A stretch of 27,927 nucleotides of DNA. Source: a virus. The stretch is taken from positions 1 through 27,927 of the IMG/VR virus record IMGVR_UViG_3300035698_022859; one strand, written 5' to 3'. The notes under the pieces were generated by a model. The model did not search any database and had not been told where the DNA came from. It worked only from the letters and a program-made list of their open reading frames with translations. Numbering within the stretch: position 1 is the first letter of the stretch; each line of letters opens with the position of its first letter. Shown piece by piece: positions 1,978 to 21,801 of the stretch. The translations under genes and the position numbers were made by a program.

Positions 1978-4449
1978 GTGAATACACAAGATGAAATTAG
2001 AATTTCTCACGATTATACAAATGTTGTTGTAACTGATATAGATAATGATAAACCAATAATAAGAAAGAACACTTTTGAAACAATAGAATTAAGCAATTTA
2101 ATAAGTGCTTGTAATAACAATGATATTAATCCATTGAATTGTAGATTCAGTAAAAAAAATGAAAATGAAACTATATTTATTATTGAAGATAGTCCAGCGA
2201 TAAGAAATATTTTTGTAAACTTGGATATGACATCTACAATTGAGAAATTAATAAAAACTGGTAAGTTTGCTAAATATAATATAAATGACAGAATTTATAA
2301 TAATTCTGATCCAAACCCTTTTCAATTATCATTTCCTTATATTGTTTATATTGTTACTATAAATAATAGTGACTTATCTTTATCTAGTATGCGTATATTT
2401 TTCAGATTATCTCCTATTACGAATAGAAATGATTATTTATTAAAAGCTAATTTATTAAATTTAGACGGAAGTCAAAATATGTGTCTTGGAAATATTAATT
2501 CTGTTATAACTTCTGATAATAGAGGTATATACAATCCTGCTAATGCTTGTCAACATTATATTGATAATTTTTGGAATAGTCCATTTAATCATGATTATAT
2601 TATGAATTATTCAGAATATTCTAAAAGAGATAATTGTAATGAAATCAGTGATTATATAACTTGGGAATATTTTACTAAAGTAGATCCAATGTTTATTTAT
2701 AAAATAAATTGGGTAAAATATATTAGGAATATTAATTATTTTTTAAAGATATATGATAATAGTAATAGAAATTTCAATTATTACACAATAAAAGATTTAT
2801 TAAATATTAAAAATTTAAAAAATGATTTAAAATCAAAACATTCTTTTGTAAAAACTATATTTGAATCTGAATACTTGGGAGGAATGGAACTTTCAGAGGG
2901 TGATTCTATTAAGTTTAAATCTAAAAAAGAAGTCTATGTTTATCAAATTTTAACAAGAATTGATAATCCTGATCTTAAAAGTGCAATTCTTGAATTTGAA
3001 AATGGGAAAAAAATTAATTACAAATTAACAAATAGATTTAAAAACTATATAAAAGAGCAATATAATAATAGTGAATATTTAAATAGTGGAACATTGAAAA
3101 ATGGCGAAATTGTAAAAATAGGTGATTGTTTAGATATTTCAGATACAATAGAAAGATTTAAAATAATAAAAAGTTTTAGAAAAGGAATTGATAATTATAT
3201 AGAAGTATCGTTTGATGAAACAATGCCAAATGATTTTTATATTCTTGAAAGTCTTAATGCAAAAGTACATAATTTTGATAATCTTATTGTTCATGGAAAA
3301 CCACTAAAAGAAGGAGATGTTTTATATATTTTAGATAAAAATATCAATGGTTCAATTAATAACATATCATCAGAAATAATATTCAGTAATTTTAAAATTA
3401 GAAATAGCGGAAATCTTTTTCTTCAATTTAAGTATTCTCTTAGTGAATCAACTCATAATATAAAAGAAAATGAAATTGAATATAATACAATTCGTAAAGA
3501 AGATTTAGATCGTATTCCTGAAATAAAAACAACTAGATCATATTTTAATTTAAAATATGGTAAATTTAAAATAATTGGAGATAAATGTATTGCATATCAT
3601 CATGAAGAAAATTCAACTTTTGAAAATATATGCATAGATATTTTTAAGAATGATGGAAAAACTATTGAAATTCCTTCTTCTATTTTAAATATTTCTTTTA
3701 GTATTGGGGATAAAGTTGTTTCTGCCGATTGGGATAATCCAGTTGATATGTTAATTACTAAAACGATTACTAATTTTATAATTGATACTGAGTCAAAGAG
3801 TATTTCATTTGAGTTAACTGACAAAAAGAAAAATGTAAGCATTGTACCATATATAATTGAGAAAACTTTTATTCAAGTTGGAAAGATTAGAAAAATATCA
3901 AACAACTGGTTAGGAGTTAATTCTGGATCAAAAATAATAGCAAGTCAATCTAAAATTAAAAACTTTCCAAAGAAGGATACGAATATAATAATTGGATTCA
4001 TAACAGATACAGGAACTGATCAACCACTAGTTCTATGTAGTAATTGTTGTACTATATGGTTTGATAATTTAATGGATAAATTTAAAATTATACCAAAATC
4101 AAACTCTTTATGGAAAAAACATATTCATTGTGATATAGATCTTACGAAAATCAAAATTCAAAAATCTGATATTATTTCCAGACGAAATGATTCTATACCA
4201 CATGGAATTGCAACTAGAAATAATAGATATACGAGTAGGTATGAGTTAGAATCCTATTATTCATATCATAATAATATTAGGCATAATAAAAAATTATTTG
4301 GAATTATAAATCCTCGACTTATAAATAAAGAAATAGAATATTCAAGAGAATTAAAATCTGCAGTATTAACACTTCATGGAACTATGGTTCCAGTTATTGA
4401 TGGTAAATTAGTTTCTTATTTAAGAGAAAGGACTGTTAATAATGTTTAA
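1978..4449 (+). CDS. E2-like (PRTRC protein B-like) domain fused to long beta-rich tail
   Basis: The 823-residue protein starts at GTG 1978 behind AAAGGAGA. Its N-terminal ~245 residues carry the pattern of the bacterial E2-like family of PRTRC protein B: hydrophobic strands around 117-145 (FPYIVYIV, MRIFFRLSP), then NLLNLDGSQNMCLGN (158-172) with candidate catalytic Cys169, then FWNSPFNHDY (198-207). E2 proteins accept a ubiquitin-like protein on this cysteine and pass it to a target. The remaining ~570 residues are unusual for an E2. They look like serial small beta-barrels with recurring GD turns (SEGDSIKF, KEGDVLYI, SIGDKVVSADW) and a cysteine group at 687-691. That tail may choose the substrate or anchor the enzyme (inference). 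It overlaps the JAB gene by eight bases, which supports co-production. The E2 call rests on motif reading, not on a profile search. Confidence 0.75.
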   Translation: MNTQDEIRISHDYTNVVVTDIDNDKPIIRKNTFETIELSNLISACNNNDINPLNCRFSKKNENETIFIIEDSPAIRNIFVNLDMTSTIEKLIKTGKFAKYNINDRIYNNSDPNPFQLSFPYIVYIVTINNSDLSLSSMRIFFRLSPITNRNDYLLKANLLNLDGSQNMCLGNINSVITSDNRGIYNPANACQHYIDNFWNSPFNHDYIMNYSEYSKRDNCNEISDYITWEYFTKVDPMFIYKINWVKYIRNINYFLKIYDNSNRNFNYYTIKDLLNIKNLKNDLKSKHSFVKTIFESEYLGGMELSEGDSIKFKSKKEVYVYQILTRIDNPDLKSAILEFENGKKINYKLTNRFKNYIKEQYNNSEYLNSGTLKNGEIVKIGDCLDISDTIERFKIIKSFRKGIDNYIEVSFDETMPNDFYILESLNAKVHNFDNLIVHGKPLKEGDVLYILDKNINGSINNISSEIIFSNFKIRNSGNLFLQFKYSLSESTHNIKENEIEYNTIRKEDLDRIPEIKTTRSYFNLKYGKFKIIGDKCIAYHHEENSTFENICIDIFKNDGKTIEIPSSILNISFSIGDKVVSADWDNPVDMLITKTITNFIIDTESKSISFELTDKKKNVSIVPYIIEKTFIQVGKIRKISNNWLGVNSGSKIIASQSKIKNFPKKDTNIIIGFITDTGTDQPLVLCSNCCTIWFDNLMDKFKIIPKSNSLWKKHIHCDIDLTKIKIQKSDIISRRNDSIPHGIATRNNRYTSRYELESYYSYHNNIRHNKKLFGIINPRLINKEIEYSRELKSAVLTLHGTMVPVIDGKLVSYLRERTVNNV

Positions 4450-5467
4450 AGTATTTATTAATGATGGACATGACGAATTACCAAATGATGATATATTTTA
4501 TATTGTTAGTAAAGAAGGAATTTTCCTAAAAAAGAAAACTGGTCTTATTAGTAGTGTAATGCCTGTGGATAAAATTTCTATTTTGCAAAATATAGATTTA
4601 GTAAATCAAGCATCAATTGATATACCAAAAATTGGAAGTGAAAATTTTTCAAAAATTGTTAATTTCTTCAAAGAAGTTTATAAAGAATTTTATGGGGAAA
4701 GTATTGTCTTAATTTATTTTAATGAAAAAATAAAAAGATTTAAATTTATAGTTCCTAAACAAGTAGTAACCGGTTCTAGTATTACATATAAACCGGAAAA
4801 TATTAAAGATCATAATTTAATTGGAGATATTCATAGTCATGCAAGTATGTCAGCTTTTCATTCAGGAACAGATGATGCAGATGAAAAGGCATTTGATGGA
4901 ATCCATATAACTGTTGGAAATGTAAATACTAAAAATGTTACTATATCTGCATCAATTGTAGTAAACGGAAATCGTGTTATGATTGAACCAGAAGATTATA
5001 TTTATGGAATTAAAAAAGTTGCTATTAAAGAGAAAAAGAAAGAGGATAATAGAAGCAGAAGTATAGTTGATTTAGATTATGATTTTTTAAATGATTTTGG
5101 ATATAATTTTTCTGAAATTATGAAAAGAGCAACCAGTATTTCATATAGTAAAGAAAATCAATATTCAATTGAAGTTTCTAAAGAAAGAAGTAAAATTAAT
5201 AAAAACTGGATAACCAAAGTATCTAAACCAAAACCTATTCCTCATAATTTCGTTCAAAAGTTAGGTTTCGGAACACATTTAACAAATACAATTAGTAATT
5301 TTAAATCAACTTCTTTAAAAGATAATATAAAACCCGGAGTTATTGAAGATGATATAGCTCCTTGTATAAATTGTATTTACAGAGATTATAAAATTGATTT
5401 ATTAGATGAAGAAGCCGATGATGAGAATGAATGGATTTTTGATATTAATACTTTTGAAGAAATGTAG
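4442..5467 (+). CDS. JAB/JAMM metallopeptidase, PRTRC protein A-like
   Basis: The 341-residue protein has the JAMM zinc motif HxHx7SxxD at H131, H133, S141 and D144, in the context GDIHSHASMSAFHSGTDD, with an upstream glutamate (E82 or E86) as likely catalytic base. The N-terminal segment (FYIVSKEGIFLKKK, residues 19-32) also fits the start of PRTRC protein A. JAB peptidases cut after the terminal glycine of ubiquitin-like proteins, either to expose it or to remove the tag from a target. The C-terminal 150 residues are charged, with a CX2C pair near 315, and have no match I know. The gene overlaps the E2-like gene by eight bases and lies eleven bases before a ThiF gene, the order expected of a conjugation cassette. 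Confidence 0.85.
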   Translation: MFKVFINDGHDELPNDDIFYIVSKEGIFLKKKTGLISSVMPVDKISILQNIDLVNQASIDIPKIGSENFSKIVNFFKEVYKEFYGESIVLIYFNEKIKRFKFIVPKQVVTGSSITYKPENIKDHNLIGDIHSHASMSAFHSGTDDADEKAFDGIHITVGNVNTKNVTISASIVVNGNRVMIEPEDYIYGIKKVAIKEKKKEDNRSRSIVDLDYDFLNDFGYNFSEIMKRATSISYSKENQYSIEVSKERSKINKNWITKVSKPKPIPHNFVQKLGFGTHLTNTISNFKSTSLKDNIKPGVIEDDIAPCINCIYRDYKIDLLDEEADDENEWIFDINTFEEM

Positions 5468-5478
5468 AAAGGAAAATT

Positions 5479-6156
5479 ATGAGAATCGTAGTAATCGGTA
5501 TTGGTGGTATAGGAACAATTTTAGTTGATAAAATTTCAAGATTTTTAAATTATTCAAATTTAGAAATAAAAGAAATGATTCTTGTTGATGGGGATGATTT
5601 TGAACCTAAGAACTCTGAAAGACAAGAATTCACTGAATTTGGACCCAAAGCTGAAACTAAAGCTTATGAAATTATTAGGAAATTTAAATTATTAGGAAGA
5701 GTTGTTAAGTCCATAAATATTCATATTTCAACTGAAAACATAGGAGGGATTATTCAAGATGGTGACATAATATTATTATGTGTTGATAACCACACAACAA
5801 GAAAATTGGTTTCTGATTATTGTGAAGCTCTACAGAATATTACTATTATTTCTGGAGGAAATGATTACACAGATGGAAATGTAATGATTTATGTTAGAAA
5901 AGATAATATTAATTATACACCAACATTAACTAAATATCATCCAGAAATAAATAAACCAGAGGACAAACATCCTGAGGAAATGTCTTGTCAAGAACTTGCT
6001 AATGTAGAACCACAAATATTCTTTACAAATCTGATGGCAGCAACATTTATGTGCTGTGCTTTTTATAATATTATTATAAAGAAAAATATGAAGTATAGTG
6101 AAGTGTATTTTGATGTATTAAGTATGAAAAGTGATTCAAAAACAAGAAAAGTCTAA
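5479..6156 (+). CDS. ThiF/E1-like adenylating enzyme (first copy)
   Basis: The 225-residue protein has the Rossmann nucleotide-binding glycines GxGGxG at residues 7-12, then LVDGDDFEPKNSERQEF at 35-51, matching the ThiF/MoeB/E1 signature with an acidic motif followed by N-x-x-R-Q. A second glycine-rich turn (SGGNDYTDG) lies at 125-133, and MSC with Cys170 is a candidate thiol acceptor. Such enzymes adenylate the C-terminal glycine of a ubiquitin-like protein and then hold it as a thioester. The protein is at the short end for the family, with no extra C-terminal domain. It starts at ATG 5479 after AAAGGA, between the JAB gene and the ubiquitin-like gene, and resembles the ThiF member of PRTRC cassettes. 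Confidence 0.85.
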   Translation: MRIVVIGIGGIGTILVDKISRFLNYSNLEIKEMILVDGDDFEPKNSERQEFTEFGPKAETKAYEIIRKFKLLGRVVKSINIHISTENIGGIIQDGDIILLCVDNHTTRKLVSDYCEALQNITIISGGNDYTDGNVMIYVRKDNINYTPTLTKYHPEINKPEDKHPEEMSCQELANVEPQIFFTNLMAATFMCCAFYNIIIKKNMKYSEVYFDVLSMKSDSKTRKV

Positions 6157-6181
6157 AGAACAAACATAAAGGAGATACATT

Positions 6182-6706
6182 ATGTTGACATACGAAAGCT
6201 TGACCGATAAAACCGTTGCGGAACTTCGTCAGATTTGTAGAGATAGTAGTATTGTTGGAATGAGCAAGAAAAGAAAGGATATTATCATTACTGCTATTCT
6301 TAACCATCAAGATGAAGGAGCTGATATTAACCATCAAGATGAAGGAGCTGATATTACCCATCAGAATGAAGGAGCAGAATCCACACAAGAAGAGGATACG
6401 AGTGATGTGGTTACTTCTCTTGAGGGAAGTTTTTCTAGTCATTTGAGTAGACCTGATGCACAATTTGGCAATAAAGCAACAACCACAGTTAGAGTTTCTT
6501 GTGGTGCTTCGTCTGGGGATTTTCCGGTTGTTGGAAAAACAGTAGGAGCTGTTGCTGAATATCTTAGGGAGGTTCTGAATGTTGAAAGAATGTCTCGTGG
6601 TTTAGTCAACGGTAATGAAGTTGCTGATTCTTATATTTTAACTGAATATGATATTCTTGAATTTCTGAAACCAGCTGGTCGTAAGGGAGTTATATTAACA
6701 AAATAA
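6182..6706 (+). CDS. SAP-like domain fused to ubiquitin-like (beta-grasp) protein
   Basis: The 174-residue protein has three parts. Residues 7-40 (TVAELRQICRDS ... GMSKKRKDIIITAIL) read as a SAP/Rho-N-like helix-extended-helix module, usually a DNA- or RNA-binding element. Residues 41-66 are a nine-residue repeat (NHQDEGADI). Residues 100-174 look like a beta-grasp ubiquitin/MoaD-like domain: TVRVSCGASSGDFPVVGKTV, RGLVNGNEV, then YDILEFLKPAGRKG. The C-terminus is GRKGVILTK, so Gly169 (or Gly166) could become the conjugating end after trimming by the neighbouring JAB enzyme (inference). The gene is visibly GC-richer than its neighbours and uses CGT arginine and TCG serine codons instead of the usual AGA and TCA/TCT. 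It has a good ribosome binding site (AAAGGAGA) and ends before a strong hairpin. It is the likely modifier of the cassette. Confidence 0.75.
   Translation: MLTYESLTDKTVAELRQICRDSSIVGMSKKRKDIIITAILNHQDEGADINHQDEGADITHQNEGAESTQEEDTSDVVTSLEGSFSSHLSRPDAQFGNKATTTVRVSCGASSGDFPVVGKTVGAVAEYLREVLNVERMSRGLVNGNEVADSYILTEYDILEFLKPAGRKGVILTK
6302..6382 (+). repeat. 27-bp in-frame tandem repeat, 3 copies
   Basis: Two identical 27-base units (6302-6328, 6329-6355) are followed by a third, diverged unit (6356-6382). Each encodes nine residues (NHQDEGADI, NHQDEGADI, THQNEGAES), forming an acidic linker between the SAP-like and ubiquitin-like parts of the protein. Identity of the first two copies at the base level points to a recent duplication, so the copy number may vary between related phages. 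Confidence 0.95.
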
Positions 6707-6729
6707 CAAAATAACAATTTAAACTAAAC

Positions 6730-6767
6730 ATTTTGTATTGGAGAGTAATTTTTCTCCAATACAAAAT
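6730..6767 (+). terminator. Strong hairpin after the ubiquitin-like gene (terminator or RNA-processing site)
   Basis: A perfect inverted repeat of 14 bases (6730-6743 with 6754-6767) extends by one A-T pair into the loop, which is T-rich. It lies in the 75-base gap between the ubiquitin-like gene and the next gene. No T-run follows the stem, so a textbook intrinsic terminator is not seen. Partial termination, protection of the upstream mRNA end, or processing are all possible. It would let the ubiquitin-like gene be expressed at a different level from the genes after it. Confidence 0.75.
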
Positions 6768-6781
6768 CAGAAAGGATATTT

Positions 6782-7024
6782 ATGGGATATAATGGCGATA
6801 AAGATAAGTTAATAAAGCTTTTTGAATATAAGAATGAAAAAGATACATTGTTAATATCTATTTTTTCATATGATGGAGCAAGTCCAAAATTACAAATTCA
6901 CAGAGCATTTGAAAAAAAAGATGGAACATTATCTTATGGTAAAATGGGAAGACTAACAATTGATGAAATGAGATTTTTAAATGATAATATAGAACAAATA
7001 TTTAATTCAATGGAGTCTAAATAA
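6782..7024 (+). CDS. Small PC4/YdbC-like protein (tentative)
   Basis: The 80-residue protein starts at ATG 6782 after AAAGGA. Its pattern LLISIFSYDGASPKLQIHRAFEKK, then YGKMGRLTIDEMRFLNDNIEQI, resembles the PC4/YdbC fold: four strands with a PK-x-x-I-R-like turn, a KMG motif and a final helix. PC4-like proteins bind single-stranded DNA and in some systems assist transcription. The likeness is by eye only; the protein could be an unrelated small alpha/beta protein. Its position between the ubiquitin-like gene and the second ThiF gene, upstream of the phage RNA polymerase, fits either a transcription role or a link to the conjugation cassette. Confidence 0.7.
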   Translation: MGYNGDKDKLIKLFEYKNEKDTLLISIFSYDGASPKLQIHRAFEKKDGTLSYGKMGRLTIDEMRFLNDNIEQIFNSMESK

Positions 7025-7027
7025 CTT

Positions 7028-7888
7028 ATGTATAAATCAGTCGTGGTCATTGGCTCTGGTTCATTAGGAAGTTTTATAACTATTTCAGTTTCTCAATTAG
7101 ACCAGATTGAAAAAATTGTATTAATCGATCATGATATTGTTCTAAAAAAGAATTTACGAAATACTATATACAAAAAGAAAGATATTGGAAGATTAAAAGT
7201 CGATGCTTTGAAAGATATTATTGAAACTAATAATGAAGTTGAAGTTATAAAAATAAATGAAAAATTTATTGAGAATAATATTGATTTATCTGATTATGAT
7301 TTAGTATTAGATTGTAGAGATTTTACATATAATAGAAATAACATTATTCATTCAAGATTATACATATCATCAAGATATTTAATTGTAGATTGTAGAAAAA
7401 ATATTAAGTATGAAAAACAATATAAAGGAAAATATCTAAGTCGATTAACAAAAACTGATTTAAGAAATACAGGTATAATCTTTTCTATTTTAATAGAAAC
7501 TGATAAATTACAATCTTTAATTAAATATCAAAGTGTAAATAGATTTGATTTAGATTATTTTAAAAATGAAATTAGTAATAACAAAGATATTATTTATGAA
7601 TCAGATAATAAAAATTTTGAAGAGCAATTAATAAACTTACCAGAGAACATTTCAACTGTTCTTTATAAAAATAAAACTAATCCAATTGATGTTTGTATAG
7701 GAACAATAGATAACCCAATATACAAACAAACCATTCCAAAAAACATCTTAAATAACAGTAAAGATTTGATTAATAACTTAGGGAATGCTCTTACATTTTC
7801 CCCAACATTTAATACTTTTATTGTATCATTCCAGAAAAAAGATAATCAATATGTTTTAGAATTATTACCAGAAACTGGAGCTGCATAA
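7028..7888 (+). CDS. ThiF/E1-like protein (second copy, divergent)
   Basis: The 286-residue protein opens with VVVIGSGSLGSF (residues 5-16), a Rossmann glycine loop, followed by VLIDHDIVLKKNLRNT (31-46), the acidic and N-x-R elements of ThiF/E1 proteins. Unlike the first copy, it shows no clear catalytic cysteine context; C96, C122 and C223 are the only candidates seen. The C-terminal half has no family I recognise and ends ETGAA. It may be a pseudo-enzyme partner of the 5479-6156 protein, as in heterodimeric E1 enzymes, or a separate adenylating enzyme. Its stop overlaps the next ATG (TAATG at 7886-7890), showing tight coupling to the following gene. Confidence 0.8.
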   Translation: MYKSVVVIGSGSLGSFITISVSQLDQIEKIVLIDHDIVLKKNLRNTIYKKKDIGRLKVDALKDIIETNNEVEVIKINEKFIENNIDLSDYDLVLDCRDFTYNRNNIIHSRLYISSRYLIVDCRKNIKYEKQYKGKYLSRLTKTDLRNTGIIFSILIETDKLQSLIKYQSVNRFDLDYFKNEISNNKDIIYESDNKNFEEQLINLPENISTVLYKNKTNPIDVCIGTIDNPIYKQTIPKNILNNSKDLINNLGNALTFSPTFNTFIVSFQKKDNQYVLELLPETGAA

Positions 7889-8235
7889 TGATTTATATTA
7901 GTAAAATTATTGTACCAGATAGAGTTATAAAAAATAATAAATCATATAAAATATCATATGTATCAAATAAATTTATTACTAGAAATTATGCAGTTTCAAC
8001 AAATAGATATAATAAATTTATTGCTTTGTTTATAAAAAATGAACATCCAAATTCTGAAAATGGAGAATTTTGTATACCAAAAGAAATGTTTTTAAAACAG
8101 TGGGATAATTCATTAAAAGAAAGGATGGAAATAATGATAGCTACAATTAATTTGGATAATTGCTTTTTTATTCCTTGGAATGATGATCTACAATTTGAAG
8201 GAGATCCTATATGGCCGAAGAAAAGAAAAATTTAA
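7888..8235 (+). CDS. Hypothetical protein with HPN...C motif (possible reduced E2-like)
   Basis: This 115-residue protein is translationally coupled to the second ThiF gene through a shared TAATG. Residues 53-62 read HPNSENGEFC, followed by W72. This is strikingly like the active-site motif of ubiquitin-conjugating enzymes (HPN, about ten residues, then the catalytic Cys, then W). The residues before it (FIALFIKN) form a strand as expected. However, the protein is short for an E2, and the N-terminal helix and C-terminal helices are hard to place. A chance match or another fold is possible. Its position in the cassette is the main support for an E2-like reading. Its end overlaps the next gene by 25 bases. 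Confidence 0.75.
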   Translation: MIYISKIIVPDRVIKNNKSYKISYVSNKFITRNYAVSTNRYNKFIALFIKNEHPNSENGEFCIPKEMFLKQWDNSLKERMEIMIATINLDNCFFIPWNDDLQFEGDPIWPKKRKI

Positions 8236-14391: not shown

Positions 14392-14406
14392 TTGGAGGAT
14401 AATAAT

Positions 14407-15249
14407 TTGACAAATAAATTGCCTGATATTCAACAATCTGCACCACTAATTAAAATACCCATTTATCAAGTTGGAGTTGAGAATGTAGAAGTCCCATTCT
14501 ATCTTGAAACTAAATATTTGGGTTTCTATTCAATGATAGCAAATGTTTCTATAAAAACAAATATTGAAGAAAATGTCAAAGGGATATCAATGTCTAGATT
14601 ATTATTAACTTTAAAACCATATTTAGATATCCCTTTGAAAAGATTACTTATTAAAGAAATTCTCGAAAAATTAAGAGTTAATTTAGAATGTGAAAATGTA
14701 AATATGAAATTTGAATTTAAGTTACCAATATTAAGAATCTCACCTTTATCAAATAATGAATTTCCTATTTATTATAAATGTAGATTTGAAGGACAATTAT
14801 TAAATGATAATTTTAAATTTTATCAAGGAGCAATAATACAATATACATCTTATTGTCCATGTTCTGCTGAATTATGTAGTGATTTAAAATCAAAAGGAAA
14901 TAATGGTTTTCCACATGCTCAAAGATCATTTGCTTCTATTTTAATTGAATCAGGAGAATCAACAATTTGGTTAGAAGAAATAATAAAATTAGTAGAAGAT
15001 TCTATCAAAACAAAACCGTATCCTATTATAAAAAGAATTGATGAACAAGAGATTGCTAGAATAGCAGCAGAAAATCCAATATTTGTAGAAGATGCAATTA
15101 GACAAATATCACAATCTTTAAATTCAGAAACTAGAATTATAGATTGGATTGGAAAATGTACACACGAAGAATCTATTCATACTTCAAATGCAATTGCTAT
15201 AAATTGGAAAGGAGTTAATAATGGATTCAATGGAAGTTATTACTTGTGA
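14407..15249 (+). CDS. folE2: GTP cyclohydrolase, FolE2 (type IB) family
   Basis: I place the start at TTG 14407, eight bases after GGAGG (14394-14398); an in-frame TTG at 14392 lies before that site and is unlikely. The resulting 280-residue protein has the FolE2/MptA active-site elements: YCPCSAELC with C150 and C152, then FPHAQRS (168-174), and near the C-terminus HEESIHTSNAIA. The family turns GTP into 7,8-dihydroneopterin triphosphate, the first step of folate synthesis and of the 7-deazaguanine route (preQ0, queuosine). In phages that route can feed DNA modification, but no queD, queE, queC or transglycosylase gene is seen here, so the end product is unknown. The gene directly follows beta and is probably on the same transcript. 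Confidence 0.9.
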   Translation: MTNKLPDIQQSAPLIKIPIYQVGVENVEVPFYLETKYLGFYSMIANVSIKTNIEENVKGISMSRLLLTLKPYLDIPLKRLLIKEILEKLRVNLECENVNMKFEFKLPILRISPLSNNEFPIYYKCRFEGQLLNDNFKFYQGAIIQYTSYCPCSAELCSDLKSKGNNGFPHAQRSFASILIESGESTIWLEEIIKLVEDSIKTKPYPIIKRIDEQEIARIAAENPIFVEDAIRQISQSLNSETRIIDWIGKCTHEESIHTSNAIAINWKGVNNGFNGSYYL

Positions 15250-20145: not shown

Positions 20146-21801
20146 ATGAATAATAAAGCTGTTACAGAAAAAACGAATACATATTTAGCTGAGTATATGA
20201 ATTGCAAGAAGGACTTTTTTTACTTTTGTATAAATTACGTTTATTTAGAATTAGGTGGAGGGGATGTTTTATTTAATCCGTATCAGAAACAAAGGGAATT
20301 TATAAATCTTGTTTTAAAAGAACATCATGTGGTTGTTCTAAAAAGCAGACAACTTGGATTATCAACAGTTTTACAAGCATTTGCTTCATGGTTATTAATT
20401 TTTTATGATAATATAGTAATTGGTATTATTTCAAAAGATGGAAAAGAGTCTACTGACTTTGCTCGAAATATCCGGTCTATGGTGGAAAAATTACCGGCTT
20501 GGATGAAACCCATTAAAGGATCACAAGGTAGAGGTTTTGCAAAAAAATCAGAGCAGAGTTTTTTAATGACTAATGGTTCAAAGCTCTATGTTTCACCAGT
20601 TGCTCCTAATGCACCGTCAAAAACTCTCCGAGGCAAAAGTTTGCACTGGCTTTTTTCTGATGAGTCGGCTTTCACATCTAATCTTGAGGATGCTTGGACT
20701 GCACTCGTTCCTGCATTATCTACTGCACAGCGTCAAGCAAGATTAGAAAACATTCCTTATGGTACAATTATAGTATCAACTCCAAATAAAACCACAGGAC
20801 CAGGAAAATGGTATTTCAATAAATACTCAAATGCTATTGCTGGTCATGGAATGTTTAAACCATTTGTCATACATTGGAAAATGGTACCTGAATTAGCAAA
20901 TGATCCCACTTGGTATGACACTCAGTGTGAAATGTTTGATAATGATCCAAGAAAAATAGCACAAGAATTAGAAATGAAATTCCTTCCAACCGAAGGATCA
21001 TTTTTCTCAGCAGATACAGCAGAAAAGATTCAAGATTCAGTTAGAGAACCGATAGAAAAAATTAAGATATTTAATGGAGAAATTTGGTGTTGGGAAAAAT
21101 CTATTCCTGGGAATCATTATTTGATTGGTGTTGATACTGCAAGTGAGTATGGAAATGATAAAAGTGCTATTGTAATTTTTAATTATGAAACATTAGAGCA
21201 AGTGTGGGAATATAAAGGAAAAACAAAAGTAACAGATTTTACAAAAGTTGTTAAAGTTGCTTGTAGTTTATATAAAAATGGAACTGTTGTAATTGAATCT
21301 ACTGGAGGATATGGGAATCAAGTTGTTGAAGCAATAGATGAAGATTCAAATTATATGCTAATGCTTTATAAAGAAAAAAGAGGGGAAGATAAAATTATTC
21401 CTGGGATTAGTACAAACAGTAAAACAAGACCATTAATGATTGATGCTTTATATTCGTATATAACAGAATTTCCAGAAATAGTAAAATCAGAAAGACTATC
21501 TCTTGAATTAGCTGGGTTGGTAAGTAAGAAAAATGGAAGAGTTGAAGCAGAAGATAATGAATTAAATGATGATTTATCTTTAGCAACAGCTTTTATATTT
21601 TATGTTAGAAAATATGATTCTGGTAGATTGATGATTGATTTAGAAAGAAATGTTGAACAATCTGCTTCAATGCAGGAAATTATGAATATGAATACAACTA
21701 TTTTAGATAAGTTTGAAAATGCAACAATTATAAAACATGTTAAAGATAATATAAGTGAGTATAATGGGTTAGTTGATATCTTATCGTTATATAACAATTA
21801 A
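20146..21801 (+). CDS. terL: Terminase large subunit
   Basis: The 551-residue protein starts at ATG 20146 after GGAGG. The N-terminal ATPase has the deviant Walker A KSRQLGLST (66-74) and Walker B WLFSDE (168-173) with catalytic E173, then the coupling motif IIVSTPN (208-214). The C-terminal nuclease has GVDTASEYGNDKSA with D330, E384 (VVIEST) and D475/D476 (NDDLSLATA), the acidic triad of RNase H-like terminase nucleases. The protein packages DNA into the prohead by ATP hydrolysis and cuts the genome. Its length is normal for the T4-like terminase group. It begins a + strand run with the metalloprotease-like and tape-measure genes. Confidence 0.97.
   Translation: MNNKAVTEKTNTYLAEYMNCKKDFFYFCINYVYLELGGGDVLFNPYQKQREFINLVLKEHHVVVLKSRQLGLSTVLQAFASWLLIFYDNIVIGIISKDGKESTDFARNIRSMVEKLPAWMKPIKGSQGRGFAKKSEQSFLMTNGSKLYVSPVAPNAPSKTLRGKSLHWLFSDESAFTSNLEDAWTALVPALSTAQRQARLENIPYGTIIVSTPNKTTGPGKWYFNKYSNAIAGHGMFKPFVIHWKMVPELANDPTWYDTQCEMFDNDPRKIAQELEMKFLPTEGSFFSADTAEKIQDSVREPIEKIKIFNGEIWCWEKSIPGNHYLIGVDTASEYGNDKSAIVIFNYETLEQVWEYKGKTKVTDFTKVVKVACSLYKNGTVVIESTGGYGNQVVEAIDEDSNYMLMLYKEKRGEDKIIPGISTNSKTRPLMIDALYSYITEFPEIVKSERLSLELAGLVSKKNGRVEAEDNELNDDLSLATAFIFYVRKYDSGRLMIDLERNVEQSASMQEIMNMNTTILDKFENATIIKHVKDNISEYNGLVDILSLYNN

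Follow-up and report, generated by a model that had tools for sequence, protein, structure and literature searches.

Ubiquitin-like tagging in bacteria is best known as an antiphage weapon, and genes for the same chemistry in a phage genome raise the question of what the virus itself does with them. The locus considered here lies in a 27,927-base genome fragment, hereafter the window, which is the whole of the IMG/VR virus record IMGVR_UViG_3300035698_022859. The presence of a terminase large subunit gene, of tape-measure-like matches in a PHROGs/Pfam gene scan, and of RNA polymerase and FolE2 genes identifies its sequence as a fragment of a tailed phage. Six genes, all on the + strand and either overlapping or separated by short gaps, stand ahead of the RNA polymerase genes and are assigned below to two modules, A and B. 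The features referred to throughout are the following:

1978-4449, + strand: E2-like protein of 823 aa (module A), with a Prok-E2_D/PRTRC-B-like N-terminal domain
2458-2460, + strand: codon of its invariant Asn161, eight residues ahead of Cys169
2482-2484, + strand: codon of its candidate catalytic Cys169
4442-5467, + strand: JAMM/JAB metallo-isopeptidase of 341 aa (module A), with E86, H131, H133, S141 and D144
5479-6156, + strand: E1a, ThiF-type activating enzyme of 225 aa (module A; ThiF, 1.5e-18)
5986-5988, + strand: codon of the E1a candidate catalytic Cys170 (98% conserved)
6182-6706, + strand: precursor of the SAP-Ubl modifier, 174 aa, with a Rho_N/SAP-like N-terminus and a beta-grasp-family C-terminus
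6686-6688, + strand: codon of Gly169, the predicted mature end of the modifier, with the tail VILTK after it
6730-6767, + strand: RNA hairpin just past the Ubl stop codon, with a 16-bp stem and no U-tract
7028-7888, + strand: E1b, second ThiF-type enzyme, 286 aa (module B), with an adenylation domain (ThiF, 1e-12)
about 7670-7885, + strand: C-terminal beta-beta-alpha-beta-beta domain of E1b, ending ...ETGAA
7888-8235, + strand: E2b, E2-like protein of 115 aa (module B), with H53-P54-N55 and Cys62
8071-8073, + strand: codon of E2b Cys62
8652: start of the RNA polymerase beta' gene
11377: start of the RNA polymerase beta gene
14392-15249: FolE2 gene
20146-21801: terminase large subunit gene (phrog_2, 1.2e-34)

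The original prediction had proposed a full ubiquitin-like conjugation set of five adjacent + strand genes, and all five lie where it placed them. The reading as a conjugation system is supported by our analysis, but the prediction missed the second E2-like gene at 7888-8235, and the genes make up two separable modules and not a single cassette. Also absent from it were the C-terminal processing site of the Ubl, the beta-beta-alpha-beta-beta C-terminus of E1b and the hairpin at 6730-6767. Taking the sequence evidence as a whole, we consider it likely that these genes encode a reversible Ubl-conjugation system of the phage's own, organized in two modules and working in the manner of PRTRC and Bil systems.

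Relatives of the window were gathered by searching viral contigs with RNA polymerase beta', which yielded 80 loci on contigs of up to 312 kb. Fifty-six of these, the window included, belong to one uncultured jumbo-phage lineage and have at least 8 kb of upstream sequence; some are near-duplicates. All six genes occur in the same order ahead of beta' in 53 of the 56 loci, which agrees with the placement before the RNA polymerase genes that had been predicted, and on the RNA polymerase tree the cassette is spread across the lineage and retained throughout. Judged by its synteny in tens of divergent phages, and by active sites that are invariant at about 30% overall identity, the cassette is conserved far beyond chance. 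One locus carries only E1b and E2b (L056, whole contig 92 kb) and another only the E2-JAB-E1a-Ubl genes (L066, whole contig 62 kb), so that the six genes can be divided into two separable modules; a relative with neither module (L064) indicates that phages of the wider lineage can do without the cassette. A DNA search for close relatives among cultured phages gave nothing real, and tblastn with E1b found no match in cultured phage records. A beta' search of genome contigs, for its part, gave 80 kept loci in which the only matches were cellular rpoC-like genes of about 30% identity, and hence no hint of a host.

The surroundings of the cassette are also recurrent. Most loci have, ahead of it, a radical SAM protein whose C-terminus has an additional cluster of cysteines (280-1326 in the window), a WYL_2/Sm-like protein (1313-1597) and a protein family (1604-1966) whose members often end in ...GE (G 78%, E 73%). 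FolE2 lies close to the RNA polymerase genes in most loci, a placement that suggests that the phages have a 7-deazaguanine or folate-related metabolism. Two divergent beta' genes occur per contig in two cases (L017 with L087, L056 with L088), as in two-polymerase jumbo phages.

Within module A, the 1978 protein had been proposed to contain an E2-like domain with Cys169 as its candidate catalytic residue. Prok-E2_D matches 22 of 30 members of this family (best E=1.2e-6, Pfam) and PRTRC_B (TIGR03737) seven of the 30 (best 4.8e-4); the window's own copy is weak against Prok-E2_D by Pfam alone (E=0.026) and gives no match to PRTRC_B. A single-sequence search of viral contigs with the 1978 protein found no relatives, and an alignment search succeeded. 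Every one of the 57 relatives that extend over the site has both Asn161 and Cys169, with a spacing of eight in 54 of them; in canonical E2s the catalytic Cys likewise follows the HPN Asn at a distance of eight. Beyond the Prok-E2_D/PRTRC-B-like domain, the protein continues in a C-terminal extension of about 600 aa. The protein encoded next matches PRTRC_A (4e-12) and Prok-JAB (1.4e-5), and it has a complete E...HxH(x7)S(x2)D motif whose residues E86, H131, H133, S141 and D144 are each 98% conserved in 65 JAMM sequences; the assignment as a JAMM peptidase through H131, H133 and D144 holds, as does the resemblance to PRTRC proteins A and B noted at the outset. E1a, rightly recognized as ThiF/E1-like, also matches PRTRC_ThiF across its full length (6.8e-11). 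Its GxGGxG, D37, R48, K57 and D103 are about 100% conserved in the alignment, and Cys170 has the same sequence context as a Cys in plasmid PRTRC ThiF.

The fourth gene of module A encodes the modifier, described from the start as a SAP-Ubl fusion, and the family profiles agree with that description. Rho_N matches the N-terminus in 32 of 39 members (best 3e-15), and ThiS and TGS match the C-terminus in 22 and 24 of the 39, respectively, at weak E-values (best 3e-4 and 1e-3); MoaD families match there as well. A predicted beta-grasp with a C-terminal glycine is therefore supported for this protein. The terminal KG is invariant in the 39-member alignment, and the residues after it range over none, Cys, Arg, LA, LL, DRKGC and VILTK, that is, tails of 0 to 5 residues; one homolog has a 67-residue tail past KG (L040) and another a complete second copy in a tandem SAP-Ubl-SAP-Ubl arrangement (L074). 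A fixed KG followed by variable tails or a tandem copy is what a glycine-cutting protease would allow, which argues that the tag is a processed precursor; the JAMM enzyme, encoded two genes upstream, would be the obvious candidate for its trimming. Small SAP-only proteins with acidic tails are encoded directly upstream of the E2-like gene in three loci (L017 3161-3523, L021 3052-3489 and L051 3792-4118), and it is possible that they are partners or regulators of the SAP-Ubl.

The Ubl gene is followed by an unusually regular structural element. The hairpin at 6730-6767 (-20 kcal/mol, z -5.6) is one of a series found at this place in 62 of 64 loci, differing in stem sequence and alike in structure. 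Stems of at least 8 bp follow the Ubl gene in 89% of the 64 loci, against 0-5% for other genes and 20% for beta'. An ordinary terminator was rejected, a U-tract being present in only six of the 64. The hairpin probably protects or ends the Ubl mRNA, which would let the tag outnumber its enzymes. Between the Ubl and E1b genes, at 6782-7024, lies the gene for an 80-aa protein that is present in about 17 loci; a resemblance to PC4 noted by eye was dropped when profile searches gave no support.

These features can be assembled into a working scheme for module A (1978-6706), each step of which is read from active-site conservation and family relationship. The module would operate as a PRTRC or Ufm1-type cascade, in which JAMM trims the SAP-Ubl precursor after ...GRKG and releases VILTK. 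E1a would adenylate the glycine exposed in this way and carry the tag on Cys170, from where it would move to Cys169 of the 823-aa E2-like protein and on to lysines of target proteins. JAMM would also take the tag off conjugates. Neither a substrate nor an E3 was found for the system. The SAP/Rho_N part of the tag probably confers affinity for DNA or RNA on the modified protein, and we tentatively propose, as speculation, that the tag's likeliest use lies in tethering or regulating the proteins of transcription or genome handling that the phage encodes alongside.

Module B (7028-8235) would constitute a second E1-E2 pair, serving either the same tag or one of its own. E1b, also correctly predicted to be a second ThiF-like protein, has an adenylation domain whose closest matches are MoeB (1.6e-14 by profile), MccB, ThiF and Cap2. 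Apart from C96, which is part of the D-C-x-D motif common to ThiF proteins, and C122, whose conservation is lower, the alignment holds no conserved catalytic cysteine of the E1 type. The AlphaFold2 model (pLDDT 88.5) places a strand-strand-helix-strand-strand arrangement at residues 220-281; as a prediction of topology, this order of strands and helix is that of a beta-grasp. Sequence-profile tests of the E1b C-terminus as a beta-grasp gave no support. The last residue of E1b is Ala in 59 of 60 relatives and is never extended, with Gly two places earlier in 90%, and no other family of the neighbourhood has a terminus as fixed.

E2b carries a solid E2 sequence signature. In the alignment of its relatives, His and Cys are present in 60 of 60 and the HPN Asn in 56; among 2,714 other ORFs of at least 80 residues in these loci, the HPN...Cys pattern occurs in only four. 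Searched against the PDB, the family profile aligned with eukaryotic E2s at exactly the HPN...C site (E=0.09), ranked behind a designed protein with repeated HPN. The AlphaFold2 model (pLDDT 94.6) runs from a strand meander through HPN and Cys to a helix, the order of the UBC core minus its first helix, and makes a UBC fold likely. Foldseek searches of the PDB and of viral models gave no significant match to this model; the weak ones were often to E2 or UEV proteins, with TM values of at most about 0.4 to E2s.

Comparison with known systems places module A closest to the PRTRC cassettes (NCBIfam PRTRC_A, B, C and ThiF), which are borne by plasmids and mobile elements. Its JAMM, ThiF and E2-like proteins are homologous to PRTRC proteins; the Asn-x7-Cys spacing of the phage E2-like protein recurs in an annotated plasmid PRTRC B, and the PRTRC C of that plasmid has, by eye, a near-identical end, ...EFRRGVGTKG against ...AGRKG in the phage Ubl. 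The scores nevertheless fall short of the curated cut-offs, with 46.1 bits against 101.8 for the JAMM protein on PRTRC A, which marks it as homologous and not an equivalog, and 41.9 against 144.75 for E1a on PRTRC ThiF. NCBIfam PRTRC_C matched none of 39 Ubl members, and neither a ParB-related gene nor PRTRC D, E or F was found in the window by Pfam and PHROGs, with NCBIfam added for the cassette genes. The phage cassette further differs in the fusion of its Ubl to SAP, the 600-aa extension of its E2, its gene order and its added second E1-E2 pair. By the curated definition, as scored on sequence profiles, it is not a PRTRC cassette. Related phage-borne versions of module A, with PRTRC-like JAMM, ThiF and E2-like genes, are found in Bacillus phage vB_BauM_KLEB27-3 (gp194-gp196) and in four further loci (L006-L009); the latter have a Ubl that ends in ...RRAGEKG and lacks SAP, their contigs hold no module B, and in the stretches seen none of these modules adjoins RNA polymerase genes. 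PRTRC-like ThiF and JAMM or E2 genes were also observed in plasmid records, on large non-mobilizable Firmicutes 'plasmids' (L230, L231 and L232) that may be phage-plasmids.

The antiphage operon Bil (BilABCD) shares the set of E1, E2, JAB and Ubl, and its Ubl precursor consists of two tandem Ubls processed by the JAB protein, according to the summary in PMC11354881. Where the phage has two small, minimal ThiF-type E1s, Bil has a single large E1 in which an adenylation half is inactive; its E2, BilB, is described with a CEHH motif that differs from the phage E2 signatures, and the phage cassette is carried by the phage itself. PADLOC models for Bil gave only generic E1-E2 adenylation-domain matches, in a version (2.0.0, of 2023) that may lack Bil by name. 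Type II CBASS (Cap2/Cap3) is approached chiefly by E1b, whose adenylation domain comes nearest to Cap2 in fold (Cap2-CdnD02 as the best Foldseek match, 4.5e-8) and which ends in Ala much as the modifier of that system, cGAS, ends in a conserved Gly or Ala (PMC10097602). The phage cassette differs in having no CD-NTase or effector and in keeping E1 and E2 as separate proteins. The phage tail-assembly genes TAPI and TAPK, a Ubl and JAB pair in a phage (PMC1779556), differ in having no E1 or E2 and in being part of tail assembly.

Two accounts of module B can be set against each other. The invariant Ala terminus of E1b and the Gly or Ala end of the protein conjugated in type II CBASS are the basis for supposing a modifier carried by the enzyme itself. 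The phages would then have two conjugation systems operating in parallel, the SAP-Ubl cascade derived from PRTRC and an E1b whose C-terminal beta-grasp, ending in ...G-x-Ala, is activated in cis or by a partner subunit and handed to the stripped-down E2b; we regard this as possible, although doubtful. Somewhat better placed, if still short of an even chance, is the explanation that the C-terminal domain is a ubiquitin-fold domain that recruits E2b, its conserved tail docking into a partner and not being transferred. In eukaryotic E1s a C-terminal beta-grasp of this kind binds the E2, and the genes for E1b and E2b are neighbours that rarely occur one without the other. One locus (L058), however, has E1b with no detected E2b, and recruitment alone leaves unexplained a final Ala that is kept in nearly all relatives and never extended.

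Different uses of the cassette as a whole were weighed in the same way. It might interfere with host systems of the Bil, CBASS or PRTRC type, for example by removing host tags or competing for them, or by tagging defence proteins of the host; host systems that use the same chemistry exist (PMC10097602 and, for Bil, PMC11354881), and foreign tags could be stripped by a JAMM enzyme. A full set with its own modifier, however, exceeds what stripping needs, and PADLOC families gave no match beyond generic E1 domains. The cassette's constant location alongside the RNA polymerase genes, shared by almost every member of the lineage, is also unlike the variable loci typical of counter-defence; with lineage-wide retention, this position fits a core phage function better, and counter-defence appears improbable. 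Less probable still is a sulfur-carrier or other small-molecule or nucleotide pathway, in which the Ubl would form a ThiS-ThiF-like thiocarboxylate and JAMM/ThiF would act with radical SAM and FolE2 in cofactor, tRNA or DNA-base modification. The matches of the Ubl to ThiS and MoaD families and of the E1 domains to ThiF and MoeB would suit such a pathway, as would a radical SAM gene upstream and FolE2 downstream. Against it, sulfur transfer has no place for a pair of E2-like proteins with invariant Asn/His-Cys sites, Pfam and PHROGs matched neither a rhodanese nor a cysteine desulfurase in the window, and both the SAP domain and the tandem precursor are in keeping with a protein tag. As a guess at purpose, we rank tethering or regulation by the SAP tag first and counter-defence second.

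An E1/E2 cassette goes unmentioned in the passages retrieved from two jumbo-phage reviews; earlier reports may exist beyond the range of the literature search, among preprints and most subscription papers, and the combination of an E1-beta-grasp protein with a mini-E2 may be new. Should E1b prove to be a self-carrying E1-modifier fusion of this orientation, it would represent a new kind of conjugation enzyme. No function for the plasmid PRTRC cassettes turned up in the literature found, and the phage genes bear on both the origin and the role of those cassettes. On the proposed reading, the phage cassettes, with tens of natural variants, would offer a testable system whose tag brings a nucleic-acid-binding domain with it and whose E1 architecture may be new. 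If that reading is true, ubiquitin-like tagging is a regular component of the life cycle of bacterial viruses and not only a weapon that they meet in their hosts.
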